A stretch of 38,324 nt of DNA from Verrucomicrobiales bacterium (GTDB lineage: Bacteria > Verrucomicrobiota > Verrucomicrobiia > Limisphaerales > SXTU01). The notes under the pieces were generated by a model. It was not told where the DNA came from, searched no databases, and saw only the letters and a list, made by a program, of their open reading frames with translations. Location of the stretch: positions 1 to 38,324 of the forward strand of contig SXTU01000210.1 in NCBI GenBank assembly GCA_005791875.1, written 5' to 3'. This document shows, piece by piece, positions 5,343-38,324 of this stretch. Position numbers and translations under genes: made by a program. Position 1 is the stretch's first letter. The number at the start of each line of letters is the position of its first letter.

Positions 5343-8300
5343 TTACTTCGCCACCGCTGCCGTTTTTTGCGGTTCAGGCGTAGGAGCCTTGGGTGGCTCG
5401 AAGGTGGCGATGCTGGTGCCGGTTGCCCCGTTCCAGACGCGGAGGACGCCGTCCTGGCCACCAGCGATGACTACCTTGCCATCAGGCGTGGCGGCTGCGG
5501 AATACATGAAGTCGGTCGCACCTGCGAAGGTGCGGGCGTCGCCGCCGCCTTCGTTGATGAGGCGGACCTTGCCATCGCCGCCAGTGGCGATGAACTGGTC
5601 GCCCACGCCGACGTGGTTGATGGAGGTGGCTTCCTTCGCGAAGCCCTGGATGGTCCGCACGACCTCGCCGGTGACGAGGCTCCAGATTTTCACCGCGTTG
5701 TCCGCGCCCGCGCTGGCGATGATGCGGCCGTCGCGCTTGAGCGTGACGCCAAGCACCTGGTGCGTGTGGCCCTCGAAAGACTTAACGAGTTTTGTGTCCG
5801 CCACGGTCCATGCCTTCACAAAGCGGTCTGCCGCGCCGCTGACGAGCAGCTTGCCGTCGCCGGAGAAGTCCACGCTCGACACGGTGTCGCTGTGCGCGCC
5901 CTTGAACTCCTTCACCAGCGCGCCGGTCACCGCGTCCCAAAGCTTCAGTTCGCCGCTGCGGGAGGGTTCGCCGCTGCCGGTGGCGAGAGTCTTGCCGTCG
6001 GGGCTGAAGGCCAGCGTGTTCACGCGGCCTGTGATTGGTGAGGCGGTGGTGGCCGAGCCGATGGTGCGGACGAGCTTCCACTCGCTCTGCGCGTCCCAGA
6101 CGATGGTCTTGCTGTCACTGCCGGCGGAAGTCACCGCGCCGCCGGCGAACGCCACGGCCTTCACCGCGCCGGTGTGGCCCTTGTAATTCTCCACGCCGCT
6201 GCCGTCCGCCGCGCTCCAAGTGCGAACGACGCCGTCCTCGCCAGCCGTGATCACGAGCTTGCCGTCTGCGGAGAAGGCCAGGGCACGAATCATCTTCTCG
6301 TCCGCAACTTGTGTCTTCTTCACGTCAGCAGTGGTGGTCTCGACTTTCTTCTGTGAGGTCTCAGCATCGGCGAGGGCGGTCTTGGTCTTGGCCACGTCTT
6401 CGACGGCGCGCTTCGCATCGGTGACGGCGCGCTTGGCGGCGTCCTCTGCGTCGGTGTATTTGCGGACCTCGGTCGTCGCGTCGGTGAACTTCTTGTTCTC
6501 GGCGGTGAACTTGTCGGTGGCTTCCTTGAGCTTCGCATTCAGCTCGGTGAGCGTCTTGTCGGCGGCGGCCTTCGCCTCGGCGGTCGCCTTGGCTTTCGCA
6601 GCGGCTTCGGTGGAAGTCTTCTCGGCTGCGGGCTTGCCGGCGGCGTCTGCTTTGGCAAGCGCCTCGGCGGCGGTCTTGGCAGCGGCGTCTGCGTCGGTGG
6701 CGGCTTTGTCGGCGGTTTCCTTGGCGTCCATGGCCTTCTTCTGCGGGGCCTCGGCTTCCATCTTGGCCTTCTCGGCAGCGGTCTTGGCGGTGGTGGCCTC
6801 GGCGAGCTTTTTCACATTCTCGACGTGCGGCTTCTCCAGCTTCACGCGCTCTTCCTCGGCCTTCTTGGAGGCGTCGTCAGCCTTCTTCTGATCGTCTTCG
6901 GCCTTCTTCTGCGCGGCTTTTTGGTAAGTCACTTCGTTGTTCGCGAAGGTCAGGTCGCGGCCTACGGCGGCGACACGGTCGGAGACGTAGCGGTCGCCGC
7001 GAATTTCGCCGAGCGCCTTGCCATCGGCAGCGTTCCAAAGTTTCGCGGCGATGTTCGTGAGGCCGAGGCTGGCGAAGGTCTTGCCATCCGGGCTGACGGC
7101 GAGTGCGGCGGTGGGGGCGCTGCCAGCAACAGTGCGAACGGCGCTGCCATTCTCAGCGTTCAACACGCGCACGATTCCGTCGGGGCCGCTGGCGAGGAGC
7201 TGCGTGGGAGGCAGCGTGGCGAGGATGGAAACTGCGGCGGCACTGGCGATGACCGCGCCCGACTCGACTTTGCCGCCGGCGGCTTCGGGGAGTTTCCAAG
7301 TCAGGATGTTCTTGTCGCCATGCGCGGTGGCGATGCGTTTGCCATCAGGTAGAATGGCGGCGGAGACAACGTCATTCGTCGCGGTGACTTCCGCGAACAG
7401 CGAACCGTCAGCCACGGTCCAGACGCGCGCCGACTTGTCTCCGCCGGACACTAGGCGTTCGGAGTTGGTGGAGAAGCTCAGGGACTTCACCGCGCTGGTG
7501 TGGCCGGAGAGCGTCTTGCCGGGCGCGAAGTTCGGAAGGCTCCAGAGCTTGATGTCGTTGCCTGCGACGGACGCGAGCCACTTGCCGTCGGGGCTGGTGG
7601 CGAGCAGTTCCGCCGCGCCGGGGAGCGTCTGCTTTTGCGCAGCAGCAGGGCGTTGCCAGAGCTTCACCTCGCGGTAGCTGCCGGACGCGAGCGTGTTCCC
7701 GTCCGGGCTGAACGCGAGCGCGTAGGTCATGTCGCGATGCGCGACGCCGGGGCGCGCGTAGGTCTTGTCCGCGAGCAGCGCGGGGTCCGTGAGGCGGCCG
7801 ATGGCCGTGGCCGTGGGGACGTGGAAGAGATGAATCTGGTTCGCGCGACCAGCGGCGGCGAACTGGCCGTCCTCGGTGAGCGCTACGGCGTAGACGGGAT
7901 TCAAGCCCGGCGGCAGCGGTTGCCAGACGATGGGCCCCGCGCCCTTCACCTCGCCTGTCGCGCCCTGGTCAATCCACAGCTTGAGCAGCGCGAGTTCGTC
8001 AGGGTTGAGATTCTTCGCGCCGGACTTGTTGCCAGCGGGCGGCATCGCCGGCTTGCCCATGTGGGCTGCCAGGCGGAAGAGGGAACTGCTCTCGGCCTTT
8101 TTGGGCTGGACGATTTTGCCGGTGTCGCCGCCCTTGGCGATGGTCTGCGGACTCTCGAGGTTCACCCCGTCCTCGCCCTTCTGCGAGTTGTGGCAGGAGA
8201 GGCAATTGCGCCGCAGGATCGGGAGAATTTCCTTCTCGAAATCCACCTTGGAGGAGCGCTTGGACTTGGCGACAGGGAGCGGCCCCTTCTTGGAATCCTC

Positions 8301-8393
8301 CTTGGGTGCCTCGGCAGCGGGGGCGAGAAAAGGAGCGGCGAAAAGGCCGGCGGTCAGGAGCGAGAGAGCGCGGTGCGAGTGGAAATGTTGCAT
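5343..8393 (-). CDS. Secreted PSCyt1 haem / WD40 propeller protein with internal coiled coil
   Basis: A 1016-residue exported protein. A signal peptide (about residues 1-27) precedes a planctomycete-type cytochrome c domain with CLSCH at 64-68 and a distal Met in AMPPAG. Two blocks of WD40 repeats follow, about residues 155-480 and 700-1000, seen as recurring SPDGKTLASG, VKLWD-like and SGAADRFVKAW motifs. Between them, about residues 490-697, lies a 200-residue Ala/Lys/Glu/Asp-rich stretch with heptad character, almost certainly a long coiled coil. Such haem-WD40 proteins are common in Planctomycetes and Verrucomicrobia, often near DUF1501/DUF1549 genes, but none are adjacent here. Its substrate or partner is unknown. 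A role as a periplasmic redox scaffold is inferred. Confidence 0.9.
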   Translation of the reverse strand: MQHFHSHRALSLLTAGLFAAPFLAPAAEAPKEDSKKGPLPVAKSKRSSKVDFEKEILPILRRNCLSCHNSQKGEDGVNLESPQTIAKGGDTGKIVQPKKAESSSLFRLAAHMGKPAMPPAGNKSGAKNLNPDELALLKLWIDQGATGEVKGAGPIVWQPLPPGLNPVYAVALTEDGQFAAAGRANQIHLFHVPTATAIGRLTDPALLADKTYARPGVAHRDMTYALAFSPDGNTLASGSYREVKLWQRPAAAQKQTLPGAAELLATSPDGKWLASVAGNDIKLWSLPNFAPGKTLSGHTSAVKSLSFSTNSERLVSGGDKSARVWTVADGSLFAEVTATNDVVSAAILPDGKRIATAHGDKNILTWKLPEAAGGKVESGAVIASAAAVSILATLPPTQLLASGPDGIVRVLNAENGSAVRTVAGSAPTAALAVSPDGKTFASLGLTNIAAKLWNAADGKALGEIRGDRYVSDRVAAVGRDLTFANNEVTYQKAAQKKAEDDQKKADDASKKAEEERVKLEKPHVENVKKLAEATTAKTAAEKAKMEAEAPQKKAMDAKETADKAATDADAAAKTAAEALAKADAAGKPAAEKTSTEAAAKAKATAEAKAAADKTLTELNAKLKEATDKFTAENKKFTDATTEVRKYTDAEDAAKRAVTDAKRAVEDVAKTKTALADAETSQKKVETTTADVKKTQVADEKMIRALAFSADGKLVITAGEDGVVRTWSAADGSGVENYKGHTGAVKAVAFAGGAVTSAGSDSKTIVWDAQSEWKLVRTIGSATTASPITGRVNTLAFSPDGKTLATGSGEPSRSGELKLWDAVTGALVKEFKGAHSDTVSSVDFSGDGKLLVSGAADRFVKAWTVADTKLVKSFEGHTHQVLGVTLKRDGRIIASAGADNAVKIWSLVTGEVVRTIQGFAKEATSINHVGVGDQFIATGGDGKVRLINEGGGDARTFAGATDFMYSAAATPDGKVVIAGGQDGVLRVWNGATGTSIATFEPPKAPTPEPQKTAAVAK

Positions 8394-8531: not shown

Positions 8532-9404
8532 TCACCCGCCGTTCAGCCCGCGCAGGTAGGCAAGGACGAGTTCCGGGAGGTCGTTGCTGTAGCCGCCTTC
8601 GAGCACGCTGACCACGGGCACGCCGAGTCCTTGTAAGGACTTCCCGAGCCACTGAAAGTCCTCGGCCTCCAGCGTCTCCTGCGCCAGCGGGTCGCGCGCG
8701 TAGGCGTCGAAACCGGCGCTGACGACGACCACGTCGGGCTTCTGCGCCTTGAGCGCGTCGAGGGCGCGGGTGAGGACTTTGCGGTAGTCCTCACGCGGCG
8801 TGCGCGGGGCGACGGGGTAGTTGAAGCAGTTGTCGCCGACGTTCTGTGTGCCGGTGCCGGGATAGCACGGGTGCTGGTGGATGGAGTGGAAGAACGCGCC
8901 AGCCTTGCCGAGCAGGATTGCCTCGGTGCCGTTGCCGTGGTGGACATCGAAGTCATAGACGGCCACGCGCTTCGCGCCGGTGGCGAGGGCTTCGAAGACG
9001 GTGACGGCGACTTGGTTCAGGTAGCAGAAGCCCATCGCGCGGGCACCCATCGCGTGGTGGCCGGGCGGGCGCAGGAGGCTGAAGGGCATTCCTCCCTTGC
9101 GCGCTAGCGCGAGCGCGCGCAGTCCTCCGCCGATGGAACGCAGCGCGTGATCGTGGATGCCGGGGTGCGCGGGAGTGTCGCCGTCGAAGGCATCGGCAGC
9201 GGCTTTGAGTCGGGCGAGATGTTCCTTCTTGTGCGCGCGGAGGATGGTTTCCTCCGGCACGTCGGCGGGCTTGTCCCATTCAAGTTTTAGTTCCTGCTGG
9301 CTGCGGAGTTTCTCCAAGGTGCGCGTGATGCGCTGGGGTCGTTCAGGATGGCCGGGAGAGTGGTAGTTGACGCATCGTTCGTCAGTGATGAGGTGCAGCG
9401 GCAT
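8532..9404 (-). CDS. Histone deacetylase family hydrolase
   Basis: A cytoplasmic zinc hydrolase of the arginase/deacetylase fold, which in bacteria removes acetyl groups from polyamines, other small amines or proteins. Visible family elements are HPERPQR near the N-terminus, the RPPGHHA catalytic His pair, DFDVHHGNGT carrying the Asp/His zinc ligands, GFDAYARDPLA carrying the second ligand Asp, and EGGY near the C-terminus. The start MPLHLITDERC is chosen at 9404 because homologous proteins begin close to this strand; an upstream in-frame ATG at 9440 would add 12 basic residues. It is divergent from aspS with about 200 nt between. The substrate cannot be inferred from sequence. Confidence 0.92.
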   Translation of the reverse strand: MPLHLITDERCVNYHSPGHPERPQRITRTLEKLRSQQELKLEWDKPADVPEETILRAHKKEHLARLKAAADAFDGDTPAHPGIHDHALRSIGGGLRALALARKGGMPFSLLRPPGHHAMGARAMGFCYLNQVAVTVFEALATGAKRVAVYDFDVHHGNGTEAILLGKAGAFFHSIHQHPCYPGTGTQNVGDNCFNYPVAPRTPREDYRKVLTRALDALKAQKPDVVVVSAGFDAYARDPLAQETLEAEDFQWLGKSLQGLGVPVVSVLEGGYSNDLPELVLAYLRGLNGG

Positions 9405-9607: not shown

Positions 9608-11437
9608 ATGAAACGCACGCACCACTGCAACGAACTTCGCCCGGAACACGCCGGTCTGACCGTCACTTTGACCGGCTGGGTCCATTCCCGCCGCGACCTC
9701 GGCGGCGTCCTCTTCATTGACCTCCGCGACCGCGAGGGCCGCACCCAGACCGTCTTCGACCCGCAGGATTTACCCAAGGAGGTCTTCGAGGTCGCCACCC
9801 ACCTGCACGCCGAGTCCGTTATCGAAATCATCGGCAAGGTCCGCGTCCGCCCCGCCGGCACCAACAACGACAAAATCAAGACCGGCCAAATCGAAGTGCT
9901 CGTGAAGGAAATGGTCGTGCTGAACCACGCGGAAGTTCTTCCGTTCCCCGTGGACGACCCCGAGGTCGCCAGCAAGGTCAATGAGGAGCTGCGCCTCCAA
10001 TACCGTTACCTCGACCTCCGCCGCCCCGAGATGGCGCGCAACCTCCGTGTCCGCTCGAAGGTCGCCACCGCCACGCGCGTGTTCATGGACGAGCAGGGTT
10101 TCCTCGAAGTCGAGACGCCCACGCTCTTCAAGTCCACCCCCGAAGGCGCGCGCGAATTCCTCGTCCCGAACCGCCGCGAGCCGGGCACGTTCTACGCCCT
10201 CCCGCAGTCGCCGCAGCAGTTCAAACAAATCCTCATGTGCGGCGGCATCGAGCGCTACTTCCAGCTCGCCCGCTGCTATCGTGACGAAGACCTGCGCGCC
10301 GCCCGCCAGCCCGAGTTCACGCAGGTGGACATCGAGATGAGCTTCATCGAACGCGAGGACATCTACGCGCTCATCGAAGGCCTCCTCAAGCGCGTCTGGA
10401 AGACCGCGCTGAACCTCGACATCCCCACGCCCTTTAAGCGCATCAGCTTCGAGGAAGCCCTCAACCGCTACGGCATCGACAAGCCGGACACGCGCTTCGG
10501 CATGGAACTCGTGGATTTCACCGAGGAATTCAAAGCCTCGACCTTTAAAGTCTTCTCCGGTGCCATCGCCAACGGCGGCGTGGTCAAGGCCATGAACGCC
10601 AAGGGCATGGCCGGCGCGACGCAGGGCCAAATCGAGACCATGACCGAATACGCCAAAAGCTTCGGCGCGAAGGGCCTCGCCTACATCAAGGTCGAGAACG
10701 GGGACTGGAAATCCCCCATCGTAAAATTCTTCTCCGAGGCGGAGAAGACCGCCTTGAAGCAGAAACTCGCCATCGAGGAAGGCGACCTCATCCTCTTCGC
10801 CGCTGACCAGTGGCTCAACGCCTGCGAAATCCTCGGCAAGATTCGCCTCTACTGCGCCGACGTGCTCAAGACGCAGGGCAAGCTCGTCATCCCCGCCGAC
10901 CAGTTCAATTTCCTCTGGGTCATCGAGTTCCCGCTGCTCGGCTTCGACCGCGAGATGAACCGCTGGTATTCCAGCCACCACCCCTTCACCGCACCCGTCA
11001 CCGAAGACATCCCCCTCCTCAAGACCGACCCGAAGAAAGTCCGTGGCCAGCACTACGACATCGTCGTCAATGGCGTTGAACTAGGCGGCGGCAGCATCCG
11101 CATCCACCAGCCCGACGTGCAAAAGACCATCTTCGAGGAACTCCTTGCCATTCCGCCCGACGAAACGCAACTCCGCTTCGGCTACATGCTGGAAGCCTTC
11201 AAGTATGGCGCGCCCCCGCACGGCGGCATTGCGCTGGGCTTCGACCGCCTCATCGCCATCCTCTGCGGCACCCCGAGCATCCGCGACGTCATCGCCGTCC
11301 CGAAGACCGCGAAGGGCGTCTGCCTGATGACCGCCTCGCCCAGCGGCGTCTCCGCGCGACAGTTGAAGGACTTGCACCTCGAGGTGAAGGCGGCGGTGAA
11401 GAAGGAAGTTCCTGCTGCTACCGCACCGAGCACTTGA
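9608..11437 (+). CDS. aspS: Aspartate--tRNA ligase
   Basis: A 609-residue class II aminoacyl-tRNA synthetase that charges tRNA-Asp in the cytoplasm. The N-terminal OB-fold anticodon-binding domain contains GWVHSRRDLGGVLFIDLRDREG. Motif 2 is visible as YRDEDLRAARQPEFTQVD and motif 3 as GIALGFDRLIAIL. The inserted GAD domain of bacterial AspRS lies in the middle (about residues 305-415). Length is normal for the bacterial type (E. coli about 590). Leu31 in RRDLGG is the residue usually seen in discriminating enzymes; non-discriminating ones tend to have His there. This suggests it charges only tRNA-Asp. The start ATG follows a repeat-rich leader without a clear ribosome-binding site. Confidence 0.98.
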   Translation: MKRTHHCNELRPEHAGLTVTLTGWVHSRRDLGGVLFIDLRDREGRTQTVFDPQDLPKEVFEVATHLHAESVIEIIGKVRVRPAGTNNDKIKTGQIEVLVKEMVVLNHAEVLPFPVDDPEVASKVNEELRLQYRYLDLRRPEMARNLRVRSKVATATRVFMDEQGFLEVETPTLFKSTPEGAREFLVPNRREPGTFYALPQSPQQFKQILMCGGIERYFQLARCYRDEDLRAARQPEFTQVDIEMSFIEREDIYALIEGLLKRVWKTALNLDIPTPFKRISFEEALNRYGIDKPDTRFGMELVDFTEEFKASTFKVFSGAIANGGVVKAMNAKGMAGATQGQIETMTEYAKSFGAKGLAYIKVENGDWKSPIVKFFSEAEKTALKQKLAIEEGDLILFAADQWLNACEILGKIRLYCADVLKTQGKLVIPADQFNFLWVIEFPLLGFDREMNRWYSSHHPFTAPVTEDIPLLKTDPKKVRGQHYDIVVNGVELGGGSIRIHQPDVQKTIFEELLAIPPDETQLRFGYMLEAFKYGAPPHGGIALGFDRLIAILCGTPSIRDVIAVPKTAKGVCLMTASPSGVSARQLKDLHLEVKAAVKKEVPAATAPST

Positions 11438-32359: not shown

Positions 32360-33133
32360 CTATCCCTTGAGCCACTCCGCCTGCTGGGAATCGGAGATCG
32401 TCTCGACGCCAGACGTGCGCAACACCTTGAGCGTCGCGAACGCCAGCGTGTCCGGCCGCACGCCACCGGTGGCGGAGTCGAACTCAGACGCCGTCATCAG
32501 CAGGCGCAGCGCGAACTGCACGGCTTGGGGCAAGGTCATCTCCGACGGGCGCGGCCGGCCGTAGCGCTCCTGATAACTCAGCACGCTGCGAATGGTCTGC
32601 GAGCCGGAGCCACTCGTGGCGTAGCCGACTGCTTGGAACTGAGCGCCGAGCGGGTCGTAGAAGTAAATCTGCGGCTTGGGCGGCTGCGTCGCGGTGTCCA
32701 CGCCCGCGAAGAGCGGCACCACCACGCCGACGCCTTGCATGGTCATCGGGAGATTCTCGCGGAGCAGGCGGGCGAGCGCGCGGACCTTCGCCGGAAGGCT
32801 CAACGACTGGAGCTGGCTGCGGCGGTAATACTCGAAGGAAGTTTGCAGCACCCGCGCCATCTCGAATGCCGTTGCCGGAACGCCCGCGATGGCCAGCAGC
32901 GAGTGCGCGTCCAGTTCGATGACCTTGTCCACGCGGTCGGTGACGATGACGTTGCCCGCCGTCGCGCGCCGGTCGCCTGCCATCAGCACGCCGTCCGCGA
33001 AGTGGAAGGCGAAGACGGTGGTGGCTTGTGTCTCGACCGGTGCAGCGTGCGTGGCGTCCACCCGCAACGGCGCAAGGTTGTGCGACGCGAGCAGAGAGAC
33101 AAAGTCGCCGGAGATTTGCGGTGATGAACTCAT
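32360..33133 (-). CDS. prcB: 20S proteasome beta subunit
   Basis: A 257-residue Ntn hydrolase, the proteolytic ring of a bacterial 20S proteasome. A propeptide of about 37 residues precedes the catalytic Thr (Thr38-Thr39 in QATTVFAF). Counting from Thr38 as residue 1, Asp17 is in AGDRR (Asp54) and Lys33 in VDKVIE (Lys70), so the whole catalytic triad is present and the enzyme should be active after self-processing. SGSGSQ and the ASEFDSATGG stretch match the actinobacterial beta subunit. Its ATG overlaps the UBact stop (ATGA), so it is coupled. No alpha-subunit gene follows; the next gene is DUF47. The partner alpha subunit must be elsewhere. Confidence 0.93.
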   Translation of the reverse strand: MSSSPQISGDFVSLLASHNLAPLRVDATHAAPVETQATTVFAFHFADGVLMAGDRRATAGNVIVTDRVDKVIELDAHSLLAIAGVPATAFEMARVLQTSFEYYRRSQLQSLSLPAKVRALARLLRENLPMTMQGVGVVVPLFAGVDTATQPPKPQIYFYDPLGAQFQAVGYATSGSGSQTIRSVLSYQERYGRPRPSEMTLPQAVQFALRLLMTASEFDSATGGVRPDTLAFATLKVLRTSGVETISDSQQAEWLKG

Positions 33134-33303
33134 TGCCCGGTGCGCTGGCGATATCGCTTGGCCTGGTCAGGATCCACCTTCTTCATGCGCTTGAGGAGCT
33201 CCTCGACGTTGGGCTTGTCCACCTTGGGCGCGCTGGGGCCGTCGTCTCCGCCGCCGCTGGGGCTGGGTGTCACCGGGCGGGTTTTCTGAGCTTGGTCGGG
33301 CAT
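33130..33303 (-). CDS. ubact: Ubiquitin-like protein UBact (Pup-like modifier)
   Basis: A 57-residue, disordered, charged modifier related to actinobacterial Pup and to the UBact family of Gram-negative bacteria. It reads PSPSGGGDDGPSAPKVDKPN, a short helix (VEELLKRMKKVDPDQAKRY) and the terminus RQRTGQ. The final Gln must be deamidated to Glu by Dop before it can be joined to target lysines, whereas family members ending in Glu skip this step. The start at 33303 is chosen because it gives a family-size protein 4 nt after the dop stop; the frame stays open further upstream inside dop. Its stop overlaps prcB by ATGA. The call rests on motif, size and neighbours. Confidence 0.9.
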   Translation of the reverse strand: MPDQAQKTRPVTPSPSGGGDDGPSAPKVDKPNVEELLKRMKKVDPDQAKRYRQRTGQ

Positions 33304-33307
33304 AGTG

Positions 33308-34843
33308 TTACCGGCGGACAGTGGCACGAAAGAGCCGCTCGCGCAATTCCGCCGGTGAGCTGGACGCCGCGATGGCTTGAGCGGTGAAAGCGATGCGCTC
33401 CGGCGCGAACATCTCAAGCAGCGACACTTTCAGCTCGCCGTCGTCGCACGCGAGCGTGACGTGGTCCCACTGCGCGGAGAGCACGGCGGCGGAGAACTTC
33501 TGGATGAGCTTGCCACGGATGAGCGCGCGGGTCGTCTCCGGCGGCTCGAACATCGCCTGCTGGACGGCAGGCTCTGGCGGCACGCCACGCATCTCGCCGG
33601 ACTGCTCCAAGCCGAAGTAAAGCCCCGCGTCGAAGTCGAGCCGGTGGTATTCGAGGTCAAGGCTTTGCAGCCAAGGGTCGTCGTCCGCGATGTTCTGCGC
33701 AGCCTGAAACTCGCGGATGAGCGCGAGCTTGGCGACCCAGTCCAGCCGGTCGCGACAGCGCATCGGGTCCGCTTCGAGGTCGTTCAGCACTGTCTCCCAG
33801 TCGGCAACGAGCGCGGCGTGCTCCGGCGTGGGCAAGTCACAGAGTTCCTTCACTGCGGCGAGATAGTCGCGTTGCACGGCGAGCGCGGTGGAAGGCCGGC
33901 GGTTCGCTAGCTTCACCTCCCAGCGATAGCGCGGGTCGCGGGAGATGGCGGGGAGCGCGGCGAGCGGGTCGGCGAGCTGGGGGAAGTTGCGCTTCGGGTC
34001 GCGGAGGATGGCTTCGAGCGCGAGCGCGGTGGTGCCCACCTTGAGCCGCGTGGCGAAGGGCGAGAGGTTCGCGTCGCCGATGATGACGTGGAAGCGCCGC
34101 CACTGGCGCGGGTCGGCGTGCGGCTCGTCGCGGGTGTTGATGAGCGGGCGCTTCTGCATCGTGTCCACGCTCTGCAACTCGCTGAAGAAGTCGCTGCGCT
34201 GGGCGATTTGGAAGTGCGGCGAGACGAACTTGTCCTCCGCCTCGATGGCGAACTTGCCCGCGCCGGCGAAGATCTGCCGCGTGACGAGAAACGCCTGCGC
34301 GCCCGCCGCCAGCCGCTCCCACGGCAGCGCGCGGGGCAGGAGGTAATTCTCGTGGCAGCCGTAGCTGTGGCCGCGGAAGTCGGTGTTGTTCTTGTAGAGC
34401 CGCACCGTCGCGCCGCGCGCCTGAGAGAGCCGCTGGGCGCAGGCCATCACCACGCGCTGGCCCGCGCGGTCGTGGGCGACCAGCTCGGCGAGCGTGGAGC
34501 ACTCGGGCGTGCAGTATTCGGGGTGGGCGTGGTCGTTGTAGAAGCGCGCGCCGTTGCCGAGCGCGAGGTCGCTCTTGATTTCGGCGAAGGTCAGCTCGCG
34601 ATGCGTGTCCTGCTCGAAGTAATCCGCCTCGTCGAAGTCCTGCCGTAGCTCCGGCACGTCCCAGCCACGGTCGTCGTGGTGCGGGTTCTCGGCCTCGTAA
34701 TCCCAGCGCATCCGCACGCCCGGCTCCATCGCACTGCGCACCAGCGCGATGGACTCCGCCACCACGTCCAAGTCCTCCACGCCATCCCGCGCGATGCCGT
34801 ATTCGGTCTCGATGCCGAAGAGGATGGGAGGTGCTTTAGCCAC
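33308..34843 (-). CDS. dop: Dop-type deamidase/depupylase
   Basis: A 511-residue cytoplasmic enzyme of the glutamine-synthetase-like Dop/PafA family. It deamidates the C-terminal Gln of Pup/UBact and removes the modifier from targets. Features seen: FGIETEYGI at the N-terminus, MRWDYEAENP with DRGWDVP (an extended Dop-type region), GARFYNDHAHPEYCTPEC containing the catalytic Asp, LYKNNTDFRGHSYGCHENYL, RPLINTRDEPHADP and FHVIIGDANLSPF. The DHAHPEY form and the extended segment before it favour Dop over PafA. The start is GTG. The gene is first in the dop-UBact-prcB run with 4 nt to UBact. No PafA ligase is seen in the window. Confidence 0.93.
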   Translation of the reverse strand: MAKAPPILFGIETEYGIARDGVEDLDVVAESIALVRSAMEPGVRMRWDYEAENPHHDDRGWDVPELRQDFDEADYFEQDTHRELTFAEIKSDLALGNGARFYNDHAHPEYCTPECSTLAELVAHDRAGQRVVMACAQRLSQARGATVRLYKNNTDFRGHSYGCHENYLLPRALPWERLAAGAQAFLVTRQIFAGAGKFAIEAEDKFVSPHFQIAQRSDFFSELQSVDTMQKRPLINTRDEPHADPRQWRRFHVIIGDANLSPFATRLKVGTTALALEAILRDPKRNFPQLADPLAALPAISRDPRYRWEVKLANRRPSTALAVQRDYLAAVKELCDLPTPEHAALVADWETVLNDLEADPMRCRDRLDWVAKLALIREFQAAQNIADDDPWLQSLDLEYHRLDFDAGLYFGLEQSGEMRGVPPEPAVQQAMFEPPETTRALIRGKLIQKFSAAVLSAQWDHVTLACDDGELKVSLLEMFAPERIAFTAQAIAASSSPAELRERLFRATVRR

Positions 34844-34894
34844 AGATGGAACACGGATGAAACACTACTTTTGCCTAGCTGAGTTGAACGAGAT

Positions 34895-35086
34895 TCATTT
34901 GCCTCGCGCCTTACCAACTTGTTCCTTCGCCCGCCGGAAACACTCCTCGCCGGGAATCCCCTCGCCTCGTTCAAGCTGCTCCATGCCTACGAGCAACTTG
35001 GCTTCCAGTTCCTCCAGCGTCGAAACCTCGAAGTCCGGCTTGCCGAGAACGGCGGATTGGGAGCGCTTAAAGATTCGGTCAGCCAT
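34895..35086 (-). CDS. Small protein after the MazF-like toxin, possible antitoxin
   Basis: A 63-residue protein whose ATG follows the MazF stop with no gap. It is highly charged, with a C-terminal half (STLEELEAKLLVGMEQLERGEGIP) that resembles the tail of ParD/CopG-type antitoxins. No full ribbon-helix-helix is evident. It may be a second antitoxin or a regulator of the MazF pair. Its stop lies 52 nt before the dop start. The function is uncertain. Confidence 0.6.
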   Translation of the reverse strand: MADRIFKRSQSAVLGKPDFEVSTLEELEAKLLVGMEQLERGEGIPGEECFRRAKEQVGKARGK

Positions 35087-35440
35087 CTACTCCTCCTCGC
35101 TCACCGAGATGTCCAGCGTCACCAGCAGCGCCGTTTCGATTTGGCGCAGCGCCCCACGGGACAGCACGCCCATCCGGCGGACCAGCCGGGTGGCGTCAAT
35201 CACCCGCAGTTGATGCGTCAGGACGGCGGATTCATTCGTGAGACCGCCTTCTCCGACGGCCAGCCGGACGCAGTGCGGTAACTCCGCCCAGCGGAGGTTT
35301 GACGTGCAGGGAATCACCAGCGCAGTGCGCAGGAAGGAATTGAGCGAGTCGGCTTGCAGCACGATGACCGGGCGGGTCCCCGCCTGCTCCGAGCCGCGCA
35401 CCGGGTCCAGGCTCGCCATCCAGACCTCGCCGCGCTTCAT
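35087..35440 (-). CDS. MazF/PemK-family toxin
   Basis: A 117-residue type II toxin of the MazF/PemK/CcdB fold, an endoribonuclease that cuts mRNA at short sequence motifs. The family opening is clear: KRGEVWMASLDPVRGSEQAGTRP split over the first strands, then VIVLQADSLN and VIPCTSNLRWAELPHCV. The RGSEQAGTRP loop holds the catalytic Arg region. The ATG overlaps the upstream antitoxin stop (ATGA), the classic coupled order with the antitoxin first. A third small gene follows directly. The RNA target sequence is not predictable here. Confidence 0.93.
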   Translation of the reverse strand: MKRGEVWMASLDPVRGSEQAGTRPVIVLQADSLNSFLRTALVIPCTSNLRWAELPHCVRLAVGEGGLTNESAVLTHQLRVIDATRLVRRMGVLSRGALRQIETALLVTLDISVSEEE

Positions 35441-35926: not shown

Positions 35927-36112
35927 TCACGGCGGGGGAATCTCCAACTGGCGGCAGATGCCGCGCACCAAATGGTCTTTGACTTCGCGGTGACGCGGAA
36001 CGGCACTCCAAGTGTCGCGGGCCGGGTTTTCCCAGATGGAATGCCGTCCGCCCTCACGCTTTAACTGGCAGCCATTCCGGCGCAGATGCCGCTCCAAGTC
36101 CGCCAGCTTCAC
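35927..36112 (-). CDS. hicA: HicA-family toxin
   Basis: A 61-residue mRNA interferase with the small dsRBD-like fold. The HicA pattern is clear: KLADLERHLRRNGCQLKREGG, then the catalytic His24 in GGRHSIWENP, and VPRHREVKDHLVRGICRQL at the end. It starts with GTG, whose bases overlap the HicB stop (GTGA). Its length is typical of the family. HicB lies upstream, so the order is antitoxin first, the reverse of the E. coli hicAB operon. Confidence 0.93.
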   Translation of the reverse strand: MKLADLERHLRRNGCQLKREGGRHSIWENPARDTWSAVPRHREVKDHLVRGICRQLEIPPP

Positions 36113-36327
36113 AGCGCAGCCAGTTCAAAGGTTTCGCGGACGCTTTGGGGCGACTCCACCTTGCGCGCCTTCTCGCGGAGGTAATCCAGCGACAACTGGA
36201 AGGCGTCCAGCAAGTTCTCCTTGGCTTCCGCGAGGGTCTCGCCCTGGGTCTGCACGCCGGGCATTTCCTCCAGCCAGGCCACGTAACCGCCCTCGGCTGC
36301 CGGCTCATAAACAGCGGTGAATTTCAT
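36109..36327 (-). CDS. hicB: HicB-family antitoxin
   Basis: A 72-residue antitoxin with a partial RNase H-like fold. The family line FTAVYEPAAEGGYVAWLEEMPG followed by QTQGETLAEAKENLLDAF is evident. The short C-terminus (REKARKVESPQSV) lacks an added DNA-binding domain, as in the small HicB class. It neutralises HicA encoded next to it with a 4-nt overlap. The pair lies between two imperfect direct repeats. Confidence 0.93.
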   Translation of the reverse strand: MKFTAVYEPAAEGGYVAWLEEMPGVQTQGETLAEAKENLLDAFQLSLDYLREKARKVESPQSVRETFELAAL

Positions 36328-37157: not shown

Positions 37158-38324
37158 TTACCTCGTCAGCACGCGATAGAACCGGCGCAGCAGGCCGGGA
37201 CTGTCGGCGTCGTCCACTTGCACCTGTCCGTTCTGGACGGTGATGCCGTTGGTGAGGCGCACCCAGGCGTTCGTGTCCGCGAGATTCGTGCTGCCATACA
37301 CTTCGAGGCTGGCAAGGTCGTTGGTGAGGAGGAAGCCGCCATCATGGGCACCGAAGAGCAGGCGGAACGTGCCATCGCCAAGGCGTTGCGGCGGTTGCAC
37401 GAACCGCTGCGGCACGAGCACGCGCAGCACGGCGGGGCTGCTGGTCACGCTGCCACCCGCGTTGGTCACGACGACGAAGTAGTTGCCCGACGCGAGCGCA
37501 CCCAAGCTCGACAAGCTCAGGTTCGTGGCCGTCTGGCCGGTCAGGAGTTGCGTCGTTCCCGCCACAGGCGGGTCAATCAGGATGACTGCGTTGCTCGGGT
37601 AGCCGGAGCCGGGCGAGCCGATGTTCACCGCCGTCACCACGCCGTTGTTGACGGTGGCCGTCGCGGTCGCACCGCTGCCGCTTCCGGCGAGGATTTGCAC
37701 CGCAGGGACGGACGAATAGAACCCGCCACTATACAGGACGGCGGCTCCGACCACGAAGCCGTTGCGCACGTCGGGCACGGCGAGGGCCGTGCGGAAAATG
37801 CCCGGCTGCCAATACCACTGGTAACTCAGCGGCACGGTGCCGCTGGCGCTCACCGAGAACGTGGCGTTGCTGCCAAGCGCCGTGACGACGCTCTGCGGTT
37901 GCTGGGTGAGCGTGACGGGCACGTTGACGGTCAACGTCGCCGCGCTGCTGGTGACGCTGCCGTAGAGGTTCGTGATGACGACGAAGTAGGTGCCCGCGTC
38001 GTTCGTGCTCACACTATTGAGGGTGAGGACAGAATTCGTCTGGCCGGCGAGGAAGCCATTCGGCGGGTCAATCTGGAGGCTGGGCGGACTGCTGTAACCG
38101 GAGCCGGGATTTACGACCGTGATGGCGACGACGGCTCCGTTGTTCACCGTGGCGCTCGCAGTCGCGCCGCTGCCGCCTCCGCCGACGAAGCGCACGGCGG
38201 GAGCTTGGACATAACCAGAGCCGCCGCTGACGACCTGCGCATCGAACACGAAGCCGCCCGCAACCAATGCCGTGCTGGTGGCACCGGAGAGCAGCGGTGT
38301 CAGGCCGAACCATTGATAGCTCAA
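37158..38324 (-). CDS. Large immunoglobulin-like surface protein with GSGY inserts (partial)
   Basis: The C-terminal 389 codons of a large secreted protein, open at the window edge (the first codon seen is TTG for Leu within PLSYQWF, not a start). At least two Ig-like units appear, each with a YQWF/YQWYW strand, an NDAGTYFVVITN-type strand with the core Tyr, and SAATLTV ends. Between the strands each unit carries a 60-70 residue insert of the form SGGSGY, APAVRFVGGGGSGATA, VNNG, NPGSGY and IDPP. The protein finishes with RFYRVLTR, typical of verrucomicrobial secreted proteins, preceded by a TNLADTNAWVRLT segment. It is probably an adhesin or outer-surface structure. The full length is not visible. 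Confidence 0.85.
   Translation of the reverse strand: MSYQWFGLTPLLSGATSTALVAGGFVFDAQVVSGGSGYVQAPAVRFVGGGGSGATASATVNNGAVVAITVVNPGSGYSSPPSLQIDPPNGFLAGQTNSVLTLNSVSTNDAGTYFVVITNLYGSVTSSAATLTVNVPVTLTQQPQSVVTALGSNATFSVSASGTVPLSYQWYWQPGIFRTALAVPDVRNGFVVGAAVLYSGGFYSSVPAVQILAGSGSGATATATVNNGVVTAVNIGSPGSGYPSNAVILIDPPVAGTTQLLTGQTATNLSLSSLGALASGNYFVVVTNAGGSVTSSPAVLRVLVPQRFVQPPQRLGDGTFRLLFGAHDGGFLLTNDLASLEVYGSTNLADTNAWVRLTNGITVQNGQVQVDDADSPGLLRRFYRVLTR

Follow-up and report, generated by a model that had tools for sequence, protein, structure and literature searches.

A dop-UBact-prcB unit in a Limisphaerales bacterium, very probably the core of a complete UBact-proteasome system with a broken-up operon

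Introduction

How does a bacterium run a proteasome when the genes for the beta subunit, the tag and the deamidase stand together without those for the alpha subunit, the ATPase and the ligase? The question is raised by a three-gene unit, dop-UBact-prcB, whose tag is UBact, a modifier whose founding paper is Lehmann et al. 2017. A preliminary description of the contig proposed that the system was either split across the genome or worked in a reduced form. Its premise, that known loci usually keep these genes together, is right: gene order is "rigidly conserved" in pupylation-competent organisms (PMC3511204), and many other families of the order examined here also keep the genes together. The tag-proteasome genes are described as one locus (PMC6466877), and Dop and PafA are only sporadic in Verrucomicrobia (PMC7947786).

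Results

The dop-UBact-prcB unit

The stretch of DNA analysed (the window, 38,324 nucleotides) is the entire contig C164 of genome G000 (Verrucomicrobiales bacterium, GCA_005791875.1). The G000 assembly comprises 4.7 Mb in 314 contigs and is 90.7% complete and 3.2% contaminated; its contigs are unordered with unmeasured spacing, and the join between C164 and contig C91 described below is one that we infer. For the component survey we searched 58 related genomes; "the order" means Limisphaerales throughout, a name taken from the record titles, and the labels G001 to G010 include same-genus relatives. The window also encodes, at 5343-8393 on the minus strand, a long WD40-repeat (beta-propeller) protein of 1016 aa. 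The unit itself consists of three genes:

33308-34843, minus strand: dop, UBact deamidase/deconjugase, 511 aa, GTG start
33130-33303, minus strand: UBact, 57-aa ubiquitin-like modifier, MPDQ...RTGQ
32360-33133, minus strand: prcB, 20S proteasome beta subunit, propeptide then Thr1

The compact layout noted in the preliminary description was borne out in full: 4 nt separate dop from UBact, the stop codon of UBact overlaps the ATG of prcB in the sequence ATGA, the beta-subunit triad is present, and UBact ends in Gln. Judged by the family models, the identity of dop, UBact and prcB is without doubt. The Dop protein matches Pfam Pup_ligase at 6.5e-145 and the solved Dop 5lrt at 8.9e-102. It is assigned to Dop and not to PafA because it scores 431 bits on the NCBIfam Dop model against 324 on the PafA model, because the Dop-loop "RWDYEAENPHHDDRG" is present in the alignment to solved Dop (5lrt/4b0r), and because the catalytic Asp, residue 104 in "FYNDHAHPEYCTPE", aligns with Asp94 of the 5lrt chain. 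UBact matches PF20513 (7.3e-23) and NF033388 (1.7e-23), and an RTGQ or RTGE end was read in 23 of 24 UBact members of the order. PrcB matches PF00227 (4e-27) and TIGR03690 (4.9e-44); its mature Thr1 is residue 38, which in alignment falls on residue 1 of mature beta chains of known structure, and Asp17 and Lys33 are in place by direct count.

Partner genes elsewhere in the genome

The window contains no prcA, pafA or mpa, so the earlier remark that the partners are not adjacent stands for the window. For the ATPase, its wording "on either side" went too far, because the right end of the window is the contig end and absence beyond it cannot be judged from the window; the adjoining contig is most likely C91, which would place mpa some 7.0 kb from dop. 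Searching the whole genome located each partner once, on three other contigs, in agreement with the proposal of a system split across the genome:

C52, 11477-12892, plus strand: pafA, own-genome search 8.6e-105, mid-contig
C305, 7082-7819, minus strand: prcA, TIGR03691 1.2e-12, mid-contig
C91, 3649-5346, minus strand: mpa, own-genome search 9.0e-123, full-length proteasomal ATPase

Thus prcA and pafA are at separate, unrelated loci. The genome has one match each for proteasome-beta (PF00227), proteasome-alpha, UBact and full-length pup_AAA, together with one Dop and one PafA. With every gene present in one copy, the set is complete, and the second full operon that the preliminary description named as its refutation was not found in the assembly.

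PafA matches PF03136 at 9.8e-105 and TIGR03686 over its whole length. Because its scores on TIGR03686 and TIGR03688 are nearly equal (252 and 250 bits), the PafA label also rests on the missing Dop-loop, the alignment to Dop resuming at residue 49 with the loop region absent, and on the place of the gene after prcA in intact clusters. Mpa has the domains PF17758, PF16450 and PF00004, an AAA ATPase with OB domains, and matches TIGR03689 at 9.3e-123. In actinobacterial Mpa a penultimate Tyr docks the ATPase on the alpha ring (PMC6466877). None of the 24 Mpa C-termini read in the order, C91:3649-5346 included, has this Tyr; they have hydrophobic ends (GVV, GIV, STI and similar), so these ATPases may dock on the alpha ring in another way than those of Actinobacteria.

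PrcA reaches 49 bits on TIGR03691, far under the curated cut-off of 139 bits, and has no match to PF00227 in Pfam, which indicates a divergent alpha ring. The PDB sequence nearest to PrcA belongs to the alpha subunit of an actinobacterial proteasome (1.9e-6 with PrcA by itself, 3.4e-13 with a profile), and PrcA orthologues directly follow prcB in intact clusters of other families. The AlphaFold model of PrcA is of moderate confidence (pLDDT 72, pTM 0.74), and its matches throughout the PDB are proteasome subunits; it starts with an N-terminal helix, itself of low model confidence. The final residues vary within the genus. By sequence, synteny and predicted fold together, we consider it settled that PrcA is a real alpha subunit.

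The partner proteins are 84-96% identical to their same-genus orthologues, the same range as for Dop and PrcB, and 49-81% identical to orthologues in other families. This identity and the flanking synteny shared within the genus suggest that the partners were vertically inherited and are not contamination.

The interval between mpa and dop

The window ends in a 141-bp segment that matches the first 141 bp of C91 exactly and is found nowhere else in the bin. A 574-codon reading frame stays open across the joint. In the joined sequence the two genes share a strand, and 6,985 bp separate dop from mpa on its upstream side; from the overlap and the open frame, a distance of about 7 kb is the probable one. 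The features between dop and the joint are:

34895-35086, minus strand: ParD/RelB-like antitoxin ORF remnant, of which 101 bp are 86% identical in DNA to an ORF of the G001 mpa-dop spacer
35087-35440, minus strand: PemK/MazF-like toxin, PF02452 1.7e-24, between mpa and dop
35927-36112, minus strand: HicA-like toxin, PF07927 1.5e-12, mpa-dop interval
36109-36327, minus strand: HicB-like antitoxin, weak match (PF15919 3.8e-4, under the curated cut-off)
37158-38324, minus strand: RCC1-repeat/Ig-like protein, C-terminal part, running in frame onto C91
38184-38324: 141-bp overlap with C91

The 101 bp of likeness, which lie just upstream of dop and correspond to part of the 1.3-kb mpa-dop spacer of G001, support the join of C164 and C91. 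The ORF at 34895-35086 marks the former mpa-dop spacer; its translation was compared directly with that of the G001 ORF, it has no Pfam match, and its antitoxin label is putative.

Several repeats were seen in this region. A 113-bp direct repeat of the mpa 3' end lies on C91 (L037, 3022-3134 and 3647-3759, 91% identical), with a ParE-like toxin gene between mpa and this second copy, and in G007, too, dop is closely preceded by an mpa 3' end (L074:1-111). A 36-bp stretch of the window (34830-34865, "...CACAGATGGAACACGGATG...") overlaps the dop start and resembles a dispersed repeat; it recurs inverted at C91:2995-3030, beside the copied mpa 3' end.

Gene arrangement across the order

Dop/PafA homologues occur in 29 of the 58 related genomes, and each component of the system in 26 to 29 of them, the components largely co-occurring. 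Among the genomes outside the genus that were read in detail, all six genes stand on one contig in the order mpa-dop-UBact-prcB-prcA-pafA in G023, G024, G029, G038, G048, G049, G050 and G054; G047 is probably also contiguous, and G027 is broken by a contig end only. The partings in the rest of these genomes affect mpa and dop (G032, G046), prcA and pafA (G013, G039), and dop and UBact (G015, G026, G031, G042); the search of G026 gave no UBact.

We counted dop-pafA distances in genomes of the order at least 90% complete, excluding those with only non-canonical or fragmentary homologues. Outside the genus, dop and pafA lie within 5 kb of each other on one contig in 31 genomes and on different contigs in 8, one of these by a contig end. 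Within the genus, none of 7 has them within 5 kb on one contig. All of these are raw counts that ignore kinship and contig breaks.

Some members of the order carry a separate cassette, seen at L291 (G081:C4, 5747-15668) and also at L290, L292 and L289; none was seen in the window's genome. It encodes a ThiF/E1-like protein, a JAB protein, an Mpa-like AAA ATPase, two Pup-ligase-family proteins and a Pup-like ORF of 66-90 aa ending in GGE. One of the two ligase-family proteins has about 770 aa, and in L291 its C-terminal part matches TPR.

Gene arrangement within the genus

In none of the nine system-bearing genomes of the window's genus were prcB and prcA found together. In addition, mpa and dop are parted in G003 and G006, dop and UBact in G001, and prcA and pafA in G000, G005 and G010; further cases (G002, G004) are ambiguous owing to short contigs. 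UBact and prcB are adjacent wherever they were found in the genus, with inserts of up to 285 bp. The displaced genes have recurrent neighbours: six genomes of the genus have murJ and/or nadK next to prcA, and three have a block of deacylase, histidine kinase and gcvH next to pafA. In G000, prcA retains murJ-nadK and pafA retains the deacylase side, but pnp-rpsO now abuts pafA.

The spacer between pafA and prcA is 1.65 kb in G007 and 2.3 kb in G003, and this closeness shows that the two genes were ancestrally linked. In G010 (C1, L084), the first 44 codons of pafA remain at 11119-11247, 61% identical and 650 bp downstream of prcA; the 642-bp spacer after prcA is 91% identical to part of the G007 spacer, and at a distance of 44.5 kb the genome has an intact pafA, oppositely oriented. 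Several prcA-pafA spacers have in common a 52-bp segment just before the start codon of the spacer gene, which fits a promoter and a recombination repeat equally well.

Selection and decay

When G000 was compared with up to five congeners, prcA had dN/dS values of 0.20-0.28 and the other five genes (dop, UBact, prcB, pafA and mpa) had values of 0-0.17. By these values all six genes are under purifying selection, which suggests that their function has been kept in G000.

Two congeners differ in the tag. UBact of G005 (L072, G005:C74, WRPG01000019.1, minus strand, near 8924-9134) lacks its final 12 residues (DQAKRYRQRTGQ), the conjugating Gln among them, and has a short unrelated end, ...AAARIT, in their place. 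The adjoining dop, prcB and mpa are intact. The altered end lies beside one half of a palindromic repeat pair, and G007 and G010 carry the pair between UBact and prcB. It is possible that the change is a natural loss of tagging, or else an error in the one assembly. The search of G006 (3.5 Mb, 95% complete) detected no UBact and no prcB, both of which may sit in an assembly gap; dop (L073:8946-10457), mpa, pafA and prcA were found, pafA and prcA being cut by contig ends. None of the six genes was found in G008 (71% complete) or G009 (80% complete), which could reflect an error or a gap.

By exact pattern, the palindrome GCGGACGYNNRCGTCCGC has 14 copies in G000, 52 in G005, 101 in G007 and 110 in G010. 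Among the junctions read, it lies at the UBact-prcB junction of G005, G007 and G010, with a variant just downstream of prcB in G007. Dispersed palindromes as a general cause of the splits are unsupported for G000, where none of the 14 copies is at a junction of the system.

Discussion

We conclude that the window very probably holds the core of a complete, conventional UBact-proteasome system with a broken-up operon, from which nothing is missing. By analogy with known pathways, Dop from the window would deamidate the C-terminal Gln of UBact, PafA from C52 would ligate the resulting UBact-Glu to lysines of target proteins, and Dop could take UBact off again. Mpa from C91 would recognise UBact, unfold the target and feed it to a 20S core of PrcB, from the window, and PrcA, from C305. 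Conjugation, assembly and proteolysis are predicted activities. Dispersal within the lineage probably involved both rearrangements and the insertion of small cargo genes, and would have cost G000 no function; the junctions hit would be prcB-prcA, prcA-pafA and mpa-dop, with dop-UBact in congeners.

In the reduced form put forward in the preliminary description, PrcB would make a beta-only ring and Dop would deamidate UBact on its own, with alpha subunit, ligase and ATPase all lacking. The partner genes are indeed non-adjacent in the window, and some actinobacteria have lost proteasome subunits yet kept pupylation (PMC6466877). At the genome level the proposal is refuted, since prcA, pafA and mpa were all found, encoded intact and under constraint, and the components mostly occur together in the genomes surveyed; we regard it as extremely improbable. 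The same search bears on the suggestion that the unit is a duplicate or partial second copy of a complete operon elsewhere. Some actinobacteria do have the locus partially duplicated (PMC3511204), but every component has a single match in this genome, of which about 9% is unassembled, and the single copies rule out a duplicate operon, leaving this suggestion hardly credible. Contamination would explain the partners differently, as genes binned by mistake with a host that truly lacks them, and the contamination estimate and the placing of the genes on separate contigs would fit. Against this stand the identity of the partners to same-genus orthologues, the flanking synteny common to the genus, the overlap of one partner contig, C91, with the window itself, and the recurrent parting of these genes in the eight further genomes of the genus that have the system. 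Identity and synteny rule contamination out, and we judge it very unlikely.

A dispersed but complete system could also have been favoured by selection, if uncoupling prcA and pafA from dop-UBact-prcB allowed core assembly and tagging to be regulated separately. Purifying selection on all genes persists after dispersal, and the UBact-prcB pair has stayed adjacent wherever it was found in the genus, in line with this reading. However, the breakpoints differ between species and hold toxin-antitoxin genes, repeats and unrelated cargo, as neutral decay predicts, and the congener without the UBact tail and that without detectable UBact and prcB are what a relaxed need would predict; we therefore hold adaptive dispersal to be decidedly unlikely. 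The genus might instead be dismantling the pathway stepwise, with dispersal preceding tag loss and with G005 and G006 keeping proteasome or enzymes without tagging. We consider this unlikely; if true, it would offer a natural series from an intact operon to uncoupled parts.

With the broken-up but complete operon as the preferred reading, four of the five junctions have been broken within a single genus while the genes stayed under constraint, which suggests that the parts need no co-transcription. The genus is a natural series for asking when and how such a pathway decays, and the case is a warning that a reduced proteasome should not be inferred from one contig.

Among known systems, the locus is closest to the UBact-proteasome loci of gram-negative bacteria (PF20513, NF033388), with which it shares an RTGQ UBact, Dop, PafA, Mpa, PrcB and PrcA. 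The order dop-UBact-prcB is retained in the window; unlike those loci, this genome has prcA and pafA at separate loci and mpa about 7 kb off behind inserted genes. The Pup-proteasome system (PPS) locus of Actinobacteria and Leptospirillum has homologous enzymes and a Gln-ended tag that needs Dop, and intact relatives of the window share its order mpa-dop-tag-prcB-prcA-pafA. Here, in contrast, the tag is UBact and not Pup, the order is broken, and the Mpa C-terminus is hydrophobic and lacks the penultimate Tyr. Some actinobacteria that pupylate without proteasome subunits (PMC6466877) resemble the window in that part of the locus seems to be missing, whereas in G000 the proteasome core genes are present and have only moved. 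The arrangement is unusual, and the biochemistry would be expected to be that of the known Pup/UBact-proteasome pathway.
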